Of a DNA stretch of 64,000 bases, positions 15,941-19,996 are shown in pieces. A program made the translations under genes and the position numbers. The notes under the pieces are model-generated. The model was not told the DNA's origin. It was given only the letters and a program-made list of their open reading frames with translations, and did not search any database. The stretch covers positions 124,001 through 188,000 of the forward strand of contig CAMDBB010000001.1 of NCBI GenBank assembly GCA_945889195.1, read 5' to 3'. Within the stretch, counting starts at the first letter, position 1. Each line of letters opens with the position of its first letter. This DNA is from Bifidobacterium breve. Lineage in GTDB: Bacteria; Actinomycetota; Actinomycetes; Nanopelagicales; Nanopelagicaceae.

Positions 15941-15998
15941 GAGCGGGCGTGGTGAGTTGCCAACAACCAACCGCTGTGGTTCTCTTCGCATACAACTT

Positions 15999-16139
15999 CA
16001 TAGGTGGCTTGTAGGGGAAGTTCGGTGAAATTCCGACGCTGACCCGCAACCGTAAGAATGGCTTCCAAATCTCGAAAGAATCTTGTCGAAAGAATCTTCT
16101 AGAGAACTTTGGTGCTATTTAAGTCGGATTACCTACATG
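15999..16139 (+). ncRNA. Cobalamin riboswitch aptamer
   Basis: The stretch contains the conserved cobalamin (B12-box) core in order: AGGT and GGGGAA at 16002-16018, GGTGAAATTCC at 16024-16034, and GCTGACCCGCAACCGTAA at 16038-16055, then a variable arm and the closing GTCGGATTACCTAC at 16123-16136. CAT/ATG and AGGT/ACCT at the two ends can pair to close the structure. It lies in a 334-bp gene-free stretch (15929-16262) directly upstream of the SCO2322/ECF cassette, which is the expected target: these riboswitches shut off corrinoid uptake genes when adenosyl- or methylcobalamin is plentiful. Confidence 0.93.
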
Positions 16140-16151
16140 TCACTTGTTTTT

Positions 16152-16185
16152 GACCAACACCCGCCGAGGTTTGCGGGGTGTAGTC
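16152..16185 (+). other. GC-rich stem-loop downstream of the riboswitch aptamer
   Basis: GACCAACACCCGC and GCGGGGTGTAGTC can pair, with small bulges, around a GAGGTTT loop region. It lies between the aptamer and the coding region and may be part of the switching platform; no U-tract follows directly, so it does not look like a standard terminator. Confidence 0.4.
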
Positions 16186-16229
16186 CAAAGGTTTTAGGCT
16201 GTTTTTTAGCCGAGCGCTAGCGAGCTACC

Positions 16230-16252
16230 CCTGTGAGACTTCCTGACACAGG
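16230..16252 (+). promoter_or_regulatory. Shine-Dalgarno-sequestering hairpin of the cobalamin riboswitch
   Basis: CCTGTG at 16230-16235 is exactly complementary to CACAGG at 16247-16252, whose last two bases are the first of the GGAG ribosome-binding site (16251-16254) for the gene starting at 16263. This suggests that ligand binding blocks translation initiation rather than transcription. Confidence 0.55.
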
Positions 16253-16262
16253 AGTTCCACAC

Positions 16263-16802
16263 ATGAAGAAAAGTACATACATCACAATCGCGATGAGCAT
16301 TGCTCTCACATTTTCACAGGTAATTACGATGCCAGCAGCACAAGCTGCATCTAAAGGTTGGCGCTACTGGGGATATTTTCAAGCAGCTCCAGGTGCAACT
16401 GAATGGAAGGCGGCTATGACTGGCCCAACGGTTGATATCGAAGATGGGGCCGTTGAAGGATGGTCTTTCGTCTTTAGTAGCGATGATGTTCCATCTGCTG
16501 CCCCGCTCGTCAAACCAAGCTTTTCCAAGATTTGCGGAAAGGTGAAGAAGGATCCAGATACAAAGCGGATCGCTCTCGTCATTGATTTTGGCAGCAAGGC
16601 CTATGCACCTAAAGGCGAGAAGGTGCCAAGAACTATCGTTCGCTGCGTAACAACAGCTAAGGGATCACAAGGAATCGATGTCTTGGGCCAGGCCATAAAG
16701 GTTCGCTCTGCGGCCTCAGGACTCATCTGCGGATTTAATGGATATCCAAAGAAAGAGTGTGGCGTAGAGATTGAAACTCCAGCCGCACTTCTTAAGAAGT
16801 AG
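16263..16802 (+). CDS. SCO2322-family secreted protein of the corrinoid-uptake cassette
   Basis: A 179-residue exported protein with a signal peptide (basic MKKSTY, hydrophobic core, AQA-A cleavage near residue 28). The mature part opens with SKGWRYWGYFQAAPGATEWK and has DIEDGAVEGWSF, ICGKVKK, RIALVIDFGSKAYAPKGE and SGLICGFNGYPKKECG, a pattern I recognise from the SCO2322 family next to ECF transporter genes in actinobacteria. Three or four cysteines suggest disulfides. Function is unknown; as the first gene under a cobalamin riboswitch it may bind or deliver a corrinoid at the cell surface. GGAG lies 8 nt upstream of ATG 16263. Unlike many relatives it shows no C-terminal membrane helix. Confidence 0.85.
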   Translation: MKKSTYITIAMSIALTFSQVITMPAAQAASKGWRYWGYFQAAPGATEWKAAMTGPTVDIEDGAVEGWSFVFSSDDVPSAAPLVKPSFSKICGKVKKDPDTKRIALVIDFGSKAYAPKGEKVPRTIVRCVTTAKGSQGIDVLGQAIKVRSAASGLICGFNGYPKKECGVEIETPAALLKK

Positions 16803-16827
16803 CCAGTTCGATTAAAGAGCTCTGACG

Positions 16828-17571
16828 ATGAAACGTTCGCTACACCCACTCACCATGTGGATCTGGGCGCTGCTGCTGATTACAGCAGTTGTGCTGACAG
16901 ATCGCGCATGGGTTGCGCTCGGTGCAATTGGTGTAGCGACCGTTCTCGTCAAGGCACGAAGTGATGGCTCGCCTTGGGGTAGAAGTTATTGGATCGCCCT
17001 GCGCATTGGTGCTGTCATTCTCGTAATTCGCGCCGTTGTTGGAGTTCTTATTGGGGTTCCAATTCCAGGAAGAATCTTGTTTACCGTCCCCATCATCGAC
17101 CTGCCTTCTTGGATGCCAGGAATTAGATTGGGTGGAGCAGTAACGTTAGAACGTTTGTCATCATCTCTGCACGAAGGCTTGATCATCGCAACTGTGATTG
17201 CGCTCTTCGGAGCGGCGACTTCGCTGACAAGCCCACACAAAGTCCTACGCACTCTGCCATTCTTTATCTACGAAATTGGAATCACTCTGGTCATAGCAAC
17301 CTCTCTCTTTCCTCAACTGGCGCAAAGCGCACGCCGTATTCGTTTAGCGCAACAACTACGCGGACACGAGAAAGTCTCTTGGCGAGGGCTTGCTCTGCCG
17401 CTCCTCGAAGAATCGCTCTCTAGATCACTGCAACTGGCAGCTTCTATGGACTCTCGCGGATTTGGTGTCAGCAGAAAGCGAAGTCGTTACAGGCCAGAGA
17501 AATGGCAGATCAGCGATAGCGCGGTTGTAGCCCTTACTCTCTTGGTTAGTTCGGCGTTGGTGTTGGCATGA
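16828..17571 (+). CDS. ECF transporter T component (CbiQ-like), probable corrinoid uptake
   Basis: The 247-residue membrane protein is the EcfT scaffold that couples ATPases to the substrate-binding S subunit. It has about five to six helices and, near residue 200, the coupling helix region with SLQLAASMDSRGFGVSRKRSRY, matching the A-R-G/SRG signature of EcfT. Begins 25 bp after the SCO2322-family gene; its stop overlaps the ATPase start by 4 bp. With the upstream riboswitch the likely cargo is cobalamin or a precursor. Confidence 0.9.
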   Translation: MKRSLHPLTMWIWALLLITAVVLTDRAWVALGAIGVATVLVKARSDGSPWGRSYWIALRIGAVILVIRAVVGVLIGVPIPGRILFTVPIIDLPSWMPGIRLGGAVTLERLSSSLHEGLIIATVIALFGAATSLTSPHKVLRTLPFFIYEIGITLVIATSLFPQLAQSARRIRLAQQLRGHEKVSWRGLALPLLEESLSRSLQLAASMDSRGFGVSRKRSRYRPEKWQISDSAVVALTLLVSSALVLA

Positions 17572-19172
17572 TTAAATTTTCAAATGTCTCACTGATCTAT
17601 CCACACTCAACTAAGACCATCATTGAAGACCTCACTTTTTCCATTCAAGAGGGCGAGATGGTCCTGGTCATGGGCGAAACTGGTTCTGGAAAATCATCAC
17701 TTCTGCGTCTGATTAATGGCCTAGTCCCCCATCACACCGGCGGCATTTTGGCAGGTGATATCAGCGTTGATGGCATCTCGACCCGTGAAGTAAAGCCCGG
17801 TTCTCTCGCGCATATTGTTGGAATTGTTGGGCAAAATCCCCTTAATGGATTTGTCGCCGATATCGTTGAAGAAGAGTTGGCCTTCGGAATGGAAGCTCTT
17901 AACTTCCCACACGATGTCATGCGAAAGCGCGTAGAAGAGGTTCTTGATCTGCTCGGCTTAAACGGAGTGCGACATAGATCTATTGCCACTCTCAGCGGAG
18001 GCGAACAACAACGAGTTGCGATCGGCGCAGCTCTTGTCATGCACCCCAAAGTTTTGGTCTTGGACGAACCGACCAGCGCACTGGACCCGATAGCCGCCGA
18101 AGAAGTTCTCTCACTCTTACATCGTCTTGTTCACGATCTCAGCGTCACCGTTGTCATAGCCGAACATCGTCTTGAGCGGGTCATTCAATTTGTCGATCGC
18201 ATCATTTACATCGAAGGTAATGGTGAGACTGCTATAGGCCCCGCCGAAGAGGTTCTGAGAACTGCCCAATTAGTCCCTCCCATCATTCGCTTAGCGCGTG
18301 CGCTCAATCTCAGTGAGGTAGGAACCAGCGTGAGAGAAGTTCGGCGCTTAACTGAAGATATTCGCGCGCAAACTTTTGAGGCCACAGAACAGATAGCTGC
18401 CAGCTCTGATGTTGTTATCGAAGTAGACGAACTGACGATTAGCTACGGAAATCACCGCGCTCTCAAAGGCGTTTCGACCAAGATTTGCGCAGGAGAAATC
18501 GTGGCAGTGATGGGACGCAACGGTGCAGGTAAGAGTTCACTCTTACAAGCGATAGTTGGTTCGCAGCTGGCCACGAAGGGAAGCGTTCGGGTCCACCAAA
18601 AGGATCCTGCGCTATTGAAGGGCGCAGAGCGAAGGCGAAGTATTGGTTACGTTCCTCAGGAGCCGAGTGATTTGCTCTACGCCCAATCGGTGCGCGCTGA
18701 ATGTGCACAGGCAGATCGCGATAATGAAATCGCAGAAGGCTCCACCTTTGCTTTTCTCTCTCGCCTTGTTCCACATATTTCGGAAGAGACTCATCCAAAT
18801 GATCTCTCTGAGGGTCAACGTCTTGCACTTGTTCTGAGCATCGTTCTCTCTGGTAATCCTGAACTGCTCGTTCTCGATGAACCAACTCGAGGCCTTGATT
18901 ATCAAGCGAAGAACCTCTTCGCCCTTGCCCTGAAGGAGTATGCAAGTACCTTCAACCGCCCGGTGATATTGGCAACTCATGATGTTGAGTTAGTTGCAGA
19001 GCTCGCGCACCGCGTTCTCTTCTTGGCAGAGGGTGACATCGTCGCCGACGGCTCCACTCTTGATGTACTTCTATCTTCTCCCGCCTTTGCACCACAAGTT
19101 GCCAAGGTGATGTCACCTAAGCCGTGGCTTACTGTTTCCGATGTTGTGCAGGCGTTAGAGCAGCAACCATGA
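17568..19172 (+). CDS. ECF transporter double ATPase (EcfA-EcfA' fusion)
   Basis: The 534-residue protein contains two ABC ATPase domains in one chain. Domain 1 has Walker A GETGSGKSS (36-44), signature LSGGEQQRVAIG and Walker B VLVLDEPTSALDP. Domain 2 (from about residue 285) has Walker A GRNGAGKSS, a signature that reads LSEGQRLAL rather than LSGGQ, and Walker B LLVLDEPTRGLD. It energises the T/S membrane pair. The fused layout is common in actinobacterial ECF systems. Overlaps both neighbours by 4 bp, so all four genes are translationally linked. Confidence 0.93.
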   Translation: MIKFSNVSLIYPHSTKTIIEDLTFSIQEGEMVLVMGETGSGKSSLLRLINGLVPHHTGGILAGDISVDGISTREVKPGSLAHIVGIVGQNPLNGFVADIVEEELAFGMEALNFPHDVMRKRVEEVLDLLGLNGVRHRSIATLSGGEQQRVAIGAALVMHPKVLVLDEPTSALDPIAAEEVLSLLHRLVHDLSVTVVIAEHRLERVIQFVDRIIYIEGNGETAIGPAEEVLRTAQLVPPIIRLARALNLSEVGTSVREVRRLTEDIRAQTFEATEQIAASSDVVIEVDELTISYGNHRALKGVSTKICAGEIVAVMGRNGAGKSSLLQAIVGSQLATKGSVRVHQKDPALLKGAERRRSIGYVPQEPSDLLYAQSVRAECAQADRDNEIAEGSTFAFLSRLVPHISEETHPNDLSEGQRLALVLSIVLSGNPELLVLDEPTRGLDYQAKNLFALALKEYASTFNRPVILATHDVELVAELAHRVLFLAEGDIVADGSTLDVLLSSPAFAPQVAKVMSPKPWLTVSDVVQALEQQP

Positions 19173-19996
19173 ACCGCACACCTGCAGCATTTTCATTTCG
19201 TGGATTAGCTCTTCCGGCACTCGTGGCAACTAGCGCAATCAGCGCACTGGGTTTCGTGTGGCCCTTTCTTATTTCAACTCCGCAAGCGCGACCACAATGG
19301 CTCTTTGCTTTAGCCGTTCCTTCTGCGCTCTTACTTCTCTTTGCCAGCGTCAGTAACGATAAGTTGGATACTAAATCGATTGCACTTCTTGCTGTCTTAG
19401 CTGCTGTTATTGCAGCGCTACGTCCGATGGGCACCGGTGCAGTCGGTATTGAACCGATGTGGTTTGTACTTATCCTCGCCGCCCGCGTCTTTGGTCCATC
19501 GTTTGGATTTCTTCTAGGTGCACTATCGATGGTGCTCTCAGCTTTTCTCACTGGTGGACTCGGTCCTTGGGTTGCCTACCAAGCGTTTGCAGCCGGTTGG
19601 ATTGGGCTCGGAATAGGACTCATCCCCCGCAACGTTCGTGGACGTAGTGAACTTGCCTTACTCGCACTTTACGGTGTTGTTGCTGCAGCGTTTTTTGGAA
19701 TAGCCATGGATCTGCAATTTTGGCCGTGGACGTTAGGAGTCGATACTCATCTTTCTTACCAAGCCGGAGCACCCATCTCAGAGAATGTAGACCGCTTTAT
19801 CTCTTACCACTTCTTATCAGCGATGGCATGGGATCTTCCTCGCGCAATTTTTACTGCATCACTCATTGCCATCACTGGCAAACCAATTTTGCATACCTTA
19901 CGTAGGGCGCATACTCGCGCCGCATTCTTTACTCCGATTGAATTTGTGAAGGTGCAGGCTAGCGAACGTGAGAAGGAAGAAAGGGCAGCGCAGTAA
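19169..19996 (+). CDS. ECF transporter S component, probable corrinoid binding
   Basis: A 275-residue membrane protein with about seven helices, containing GIEPMWFVLILAARVFGPSFGFLLGALSM and FLTGGLGPWVAYQAFAAGWIGLG, typical of the S subunits that accompany CbiQ/EcfA in actinobacteria. The start ATG at 19169 overlaps the ATPase stop (ATGA); the longer frame from 19124 lies inside the ATPase gene. Riboswitch control makes a corrinoid the best guess for its substrate. The 3' end overlaps the convergent gcvT gene by 38 bp. Confidence 0.88.
   Translation: MNRTPAAFSFRGLALPALVATSAISALGFVWPFLISTPQARPQWLFALAVPSALLLLFASVSNDKLDTKSIALLAVLAAVIAALRPMGTGAVGIEPMWFVLILAARVFGPSFGFLLGALSMVLSAFLTGGLGPWVAYQAFAAGWIGLGIGLIPRNVRGRSELALLALYGVVAAAFFGIAMDLQFWPWTLGVDTHLSYQAGAPISENVDRFISYHFLSAMAWDLPRAIFTASLIAITGKPILHTLRRAHTRAAFFTPIEFVKVQASEREKEERAAQ

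Follow-up and report, generated by a model that had tools for sequence, protein, structure and literature searches.

Why should a cobalamin riboswitch place a small secreted protein ahead of the genes for an energy-coupling factor (ECF) transporter? The question is raised by a window of 64,000 nucleotides (positions 124,001 to 188,000 of contig CAMDBB010000001.1, GenBank assembly GCA_945889195.1). Its region from 15989 to 19996, on the forward strand throughout, holds the riboswitch followed by genes for a SCO2322-family protein, the transmembrane subunit EcfT, a fused double ATPase (EcfAA), and an S component (EcfS). The initial annotation of this stretch treated the leading gene as one without described function. 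We find instead that it encodes a circular permutation of a domain that appears to be related, at the level of distant similarity, to the beta domain of transcobalamin and intrinsic factor, vitamin B12 carriers of animals. The advance of the present analysis is thus the likely identity of the SCO2322 family: a beta domain of transcobalamin-like type, permuted, that works in B12 uptake by actinobacteria.

The genome, 1.43 Mb in length, has Candidatus Planktophila versatilis and the acI isolates IMCC25003, IMCC26103, and IMCC19121 among its near kin, and the organism is therefore an acI freshwater actinobacterium. In passages on acI genomes, Kang 2017 (PMC5301498) already proposed the ECF module behind cobalamin/adenosylcobalamin (AdoCbl) riboswitches as a cobalamin transporter and reported that no cobalamin biosynthesis pathway was found. 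That module comes from the same lineage as the window (strain IMCC25003 is locus L055 of our survey), and a riboswitch-regulated ECF transporter in acI is already known and not new. The passages on the module say nothing about the first gene or the family to which it belongs, nor about a permutation or a relation to transcobalamin, and we found no mention of the SCO2322 family in the literature searched.

The leading gene encodes a circularly permuted domain

The SCO2322-family protein (16263..16802, 179 residues) starts at ATG 16263 behind an AGGAG at 16250-16254 and consists of a signal peptide (16263-16346) and a mature domain (16347-16799). It matches NF040672 (SCO2322_fam) with 153.4 bits, against an NCBIfam cutoff of 85, over positions 2-144 of the 144 in the model, and its AlphaFold model has a predicted local distance difference test score (pLDDT) of 90 and a predicted template modeling score (pTM) of 0.86.

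The slot between the alpha gene (discussed below) and EcfT is filled in several families, at eight loci of our survey, by unpermuted proteins whose halves stand in the opposite order to those of SCO2322. In the best case, a single sequence of this canonical order matches SCO2322 proteins as two swapped pieces, with independent E values of about 1e-7 each. In whole-genome searches, a profile of eight canonical sequences recovers the swapped pieces from dozens of genomes (E of 1e-6 to 1e-8 per piece); in genome G169, for example, profile positions 61-110 come first and 3-64 follow. The window genome likewise yields two pieces, with a best E of 1.7e-5. The profile-profile score was 77 over 38 columns for SCO2322 as it stands and 135 over 97 columns once its halves had been swapped in silico; shuffles reached at most 27. 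We regard it as established, from these sequence comparisons, that SCO2322 is a circular permutation of the unpermuted domain found in the same operon slot of other actinobacterial families.

By profile comparison, the C-terminal half of the unpermuted domain has moved to the N terminus of the window protein (16353..16475; RYWGYF...W...GP...DGAVEGWSFVF). The N-terminal half follows at 16563..16769 (KRIALVIDFG...C...GIDVL...GLICGFNGYP..ECG) and is also placed by VIA-align to bovine transcobalamin (PDB 2bb6), where it corresponds to residues 313-379. Two loci (L150 and L194) have an additional unpermuted beta gene, divergent in sequence, directly 3' of the S component.

Distant similarity to the beta domain of animal B12 carriers

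PMC4350170 identifies DUF4430 as the domain at the C terminus of transcobalamins. The order of domain halves in DUF4430 and transcobalamin beta is not matched by SCO2322, in which it is swapped, but it is matched by the relatives in the same operon slot. Using sequences of intrinsic factor, haptocorrin, and transcobalamin taken from PDB chains, we obtained a profile score of 27.3 over 71 co-linear columns between the canonical family and the beta domains of these carriers. None of 200 column shuffles reached this score (maximum, 19.2), and the reversed control gave 10.0. The alignment pairs HYWAYF with TYWQFL and EGASTYQP with EGVADYIP.

Among solved structures, 2bb6 aligned best with the model of the window protein: residues 69-141 fall on 313-379, with 59 residues at 2.5 Å, 22% identity, and a weak Z of 2.6. 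The match spans exactly the domain half that precedes the permutation point and ends just before that point. Searches of PDB sequences with the SCO2322 profile and with the canonical-family profile returned chance matches only. A Pfam search of the class found DUF4430 in 2 of 148 genomes; the Pfam model therefore does not cover this family.

In transcobalamin, intrinsic factor, and haptocorrin (2bb6, 3kq4, and 4kki), an alpha toroid is followed by the beta domain, co-linear with the unpermuted actinobacterial domain, and one half of the permuted SCO2322 model superposes weakly on transcobalamin beta. The bacterial system differs from the animal carriers in that the two parts are separate genes in most bacteria, beta is permuted in the SCO2322 family, alpha is lost in acI, and an ECF transporter stands in place of an endocytic receptor.

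The alpha partner in other actinobacteria

The synteny of SCO2322, EcfT, EcfAA, and EcfS runs through the class. A beta gene followed by EcfT, EcfAA, and EcfS occurs across about 25 families, mostly with an alpha gene in front; the gene ahead of SCO2322 is of the SCO2321 family in Streptomyces and in most other families. The SCO2321-family protein is an alpha/alpha toroid and is related to the repeats of squalene-hopene cyclase. In Streptomyces it carries a C-terminal membrane anchor; at locus L043, where a CbiMQO-like set lies upstream, its end is LPXTG-like (a weak Pfam match). Compared with the alpha domain of transcobalamin, the alpha family scores 31.3 over 139 profile columns, with shuffles reaching at most 18.6. 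In one genome (L203:5736-9419, reverse strand), the two parts occur in a single 1228-residue surface protein, consisting of a beta domain, an apparent immunoglobulin-like stretch, an alpha toroid, and then a membrane anchor. A Streptomyces-family operon (L213) has canonical beta, EcfT, EcfAA, EcfS, alpha, and a true Pfam DUF4430 protein in a row. Just upstream of it, on the opposite strand, is a strong cobalamin riboswitch (L213:5575-5768, reverse strand, 91.6 bits). At L040:6694-8873, alpha and SCO2322 lie behind an AdoCbl-II riboswitch, and this pair may serve another transporter, because no ECF genes were found in the 8 kb downstream.

Conditions in acI are different. No match to SCO2321 (NF053823) was found in the window genome or in 60 genomes of the same genus (61 in total), nor was a PF13243 toroid found in the window genome. 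The alpha partner has thus been lost in acI, which uses the permuted beta alone.

Cobalamin riboswitches precede the operon and many of its relatives

The aptamer (15989..16149; AdoCbl type) carries the invariant core GGGGAAGTTCGGTG...GACGCTGACCCGCAACCGTAA...AAGTCGGATTACC and is supported by RF01482, RF00174, and conservation. RF01482 (AdoCbl) aligns over its full length, model positions 1-149, with 41.6 bits and an E of 2e-6 over a 451-base stretch. RF00174 gives 28.6 bits, with an E of 1.2e-5 across the whole genome, where it is the sole cobalamin-riboswitch match. With its default settings, Rfam reports no entry for the window, since both cobalamin models score under their curated gathering scores (50 bits for RF01482 and 31.5 bits for RF00174). 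With respect to Rfam clan CL00101, the aptamer thus misses the curated cutoff but is a full-length match with the core, in the 5' leader of B12-related genes.

Orthologous leaders strengthen the assignment. Among the 20 loci scanned first, 11 are acI loci at or above the cutoff (AdoCbl model, up to 66.7 bits; one via RF00174), and the core columns are invariant in 13 aligned acI leaders. Both core motifs occur, in order, upstream of the SCO2322 gene in 72/72 acI loci with at least 600 nt of upstream sequence; a count over 1.97 Mb, both strands included, gives 74 occurrences of the first motif. The riboswitch named by the initial annotation is thereby upheld, and the covariance-model search that it proposed gives E-significant matches to both models, although under gathering scores.

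Between the aptamer and the gene lies the presumed expression platform (16157..16254), delimited from the columns of the 13 leaders, with an invariant ACACCCGCCGAGGTTTGCGGGGTGT hairpin, a conserved CTACCCCTGTGAGAC segment, and the AGGAG as Shine-Dalgarno sequence. Within 16157-16245, the post-aptamer segments ACACCCGCCGAGG...GCGGGGTGT and CTACCCCTGTGAGAC are nearly invariant in the same leaders. These segments are probably the switching platform, through which the leader would exert its control; single-sequence folding of the platform was no better than shuffles (z of -0.26).

Elsewhere in the actinobacteria, cobalamin riboswitches of three Rfam models (RF00174, RF01482, and RF01689) immediately precede alpha or beta at 14 loci from different families. 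At two actinomycete loci (L186 and L187), three to four cobalamin riboswitches are arrayed around alpha, the ECF genes, and two unpermuted beta copies. The initial annotation had tied its corrinoid assignment to the riboswitch class; at curated cutoffs, beta-ECF loci across many actinobacterial families have cobalamin-class models only and none of the other metabolite riboswitch classes. The gene set thus did not turn up behind another riboswitch class, the outcome that the initial annotation had named as counting against its reading.

The transporter genes

EcfT (16828..17571) matches PF02361 with 39.1 bits (cutoff, 25). It is followed by the fused double EcfA ATPase (17568..19172, 534 residues), with PF00005 in two stretches and 292.8 bits to TIGR04520, and by the S component (19169..19996), which has extra N-terminal helices and matches PF07155 with 44.9 bits (cutoff, 26.7). 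For the S gene, the most likely start is ATG 19169, which overlaps the stop of the ATPase gene, in place of GTG 19124 of the long open reading frame. Its fold model aligns with 4hzu_S by VIA-align (Z of 13.8, 158 residues, 2.7 Å), which identifies an S-component fold. No sequence relation to any solved S component, CbrT included, was detected against PDB sequences; CbrT was absent among the fold matches listed for the model, which does not argue against a relation. Pfam does not recognize the protein as CbiM. Since the S component is encoded together with EcfT and both ATPase domains, the transporter is of the dedicated type.

The gene order from SCO2322 through EcfT and the ATPase to the S component is kept in 54/54 related acI loci with enough downstream sequence. 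The initial annotation was correct about the four linked genes (NF040672, PF02361, PF00005 twice, and PF07155), the complete ECF transporter under B12 control, and the exported protein in first position as part of the system. Imported corrinoid would have a use in the window genome, as it encodes a B12-binding domain inside an open reading frame of 1173 residues, MetH-like in size, and a PduO-type adenosyltransferase.

A proposed uptake mechanism and its alternatives

We consider it likely that the acI operon is a B12 (corrinoid) importer with a permuted transcobalamin-type beta module predicted to bind corrinoid outside the membrane. Low intracellular adenosylcobalamin would lead the riboswitch to permit expression of the operon; riboswitch control is supported by sequence, and its direction is inferred. 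The SCO2322 protein would be exported and, as distant homology and gene context support, capture corrinoid through its circularly permuted transcobalamin/intrinsic-factor-type beta domain. It would then pass the corrinoid to the S component or keep it nearby, and EcfT and the double ATPase would power ATP-driven import. In most other actinobacterial families, beta and the SCO2321-type alpha toroid would form a two-part transcobalamin-like clamp; in acI, the beta would have to act alone or against the S component, because the alpha part is lost.

Several observations weigh against this interpretation. The Pfam search of the window protein gave no match, DUF4430 (PF14478) included, and plain Foldseek of its model against the PDB gave nothing significant, possibly because a sequential aligner can miss a permuted fold. 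The 2bb6 match is weak, and an unrelated deaminase stands in the same list at a Z of 2.5. The direct comparison of permuted SCO2322 with transcobalamin is borderline (19.5, reached by 2 of 200 shuffles), and the link therefore runs through the canonical family, which in turn shows no significant similarity to a Streptomyces DUF4430 pair (two sequences only). By sequence, the alpha family is nearer to squalene-hopene cyclase toroids (PDB, 2.6e-32), and transcobalamin is not among the matches listed; in acI, moreover, neither NF053823 nor PF13243 is represented in the searches described above. Streptomyces loci and several others have no riboswitch at the cutoff. Finally, the window protein has no membrane anchor, and a free binder would be lost by diffusion if the signal peptide were cleaved and the protein did not dock on the transporter; an uncleaved signal peptide and docking are both possible means of keeping a soluble beta near the cell.

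The similarity to transcobalamin beta might be convergence on a small alpha/beta fold, uninformative as to the ligand. The Z of only 2.6, a profile probability of only 42%, and the negative DUF4430 comparison are consistent with this, but the co-linear motif match exceeds 200 shuffles, the alpha-beta gene order mirrors that of transcobalamin, and the entire operon lies under B12 riboswitches, and we think convergence improbable. We give similarly little credence to an ECF transporter that imports corrinoid unaided, with SCO2322 as an accessory surface protein that does not bind B12 (acting, e.g., in assembly, protection, or B12 remodeling). A first slot held by beta in 54/54 acI loci and about 25 families, the resemblance to the B12-gripping half of animal carriers, and the fusion to a toroid in one genome all speak against it, even though the alpha partner is missing in acI and ECF-CbrT functions without a soluble protein (PMC5997447).

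The least probable alternative, in our estimation, is that B12 controls the import of a substrate that is not a complete corrinoid, such as cobinamide alone, dimethylbenzimidazole, or cobalt. B12 riboswitches also govern cobalt and precursor transporters. The CbiMQO-like set upstream at L043 and an S component with no detectable sequence relation to solved S components would suit such a substrate, but the transcobalamin-like alpha-beta partners indicate a whole corrinoid, Pfam does not call the S component CbiM, and cobalt would be of little use to acI, for which no cobalamin biosynthesis pathway was found in the relevant passages of Kang 2017.

Comparison with known uptake systems

BtuF of BtuCDF and BtuG of Bacteroides are extracytoplasmic corrinoid binders that serve importers, with folds and transporters unrelated to SCO2322 and ECF. 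ECF-CbrT of Lactobacillus delbrueckii (PMC5997447), like the window system, is an ECF importer of cobalamin and cobinamide in which the S component is the membrane binding protein. It differs in using a shared (group II) ECF module and in needing no extracytoplasmic protein, and we found no sequence relation between the S components.

The initial annotation regarded an extracytoplasmic partner for an ECF corrinoid importer as a new arrangement. The partner does belong to the system, but the arrangement is not wholly new: in a protein list for Lacticaseibacillus rhamnosus, one entry is labeled "Additional lipoprotein component of putative cobalamin ECF transporter," and a DUF4430 gene lies near rtpR (PMC9963975). 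The likeness lies in the annotation of an extracytoplasmic protein as an additional part of an ECF transporter for B12, and in DUF4430 as the family of the transcobalamin C-terminal domain (PMC4350170). This is a Firmicute lipoprotein, however, its label is an annotation, and the text found neither states that the lipoprotein and DUF4430 entries are one protein nor describes a permutation. Overall, the earlier reading is partly supported, its observation being right and its interpretation right in outline but incomplete.

Implications

A broader proposal, which we neither favor nor discount, is that an actinobacterial cell-surface alpha-beta corrinoid clamp feeds a dedicated ECF importer, that the SCO2322 branch carries a naturally permuted beta, that in acI the permuted beta alone caps or loads the S component, and that the system shares ancestry with the animal B12 carriers. 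B12 auxotrophy shapes freshwater microbial communities, among whose most abundant lineages is acI. The finding gives a testable function to SCO2321 and SCO2322, two families that had none, and suggests that extracytoplasmic carriers can serve ECF importers of B12. It presents a circular permutation that has arisen naturally in a single operon slot. A bacterial relative is also indicated for the B12 carriers of animals, on whose deeper origin we found no discussion in the papers searched. If the proposal is true, these carriers would share ancestry with a bacterial uptake module.

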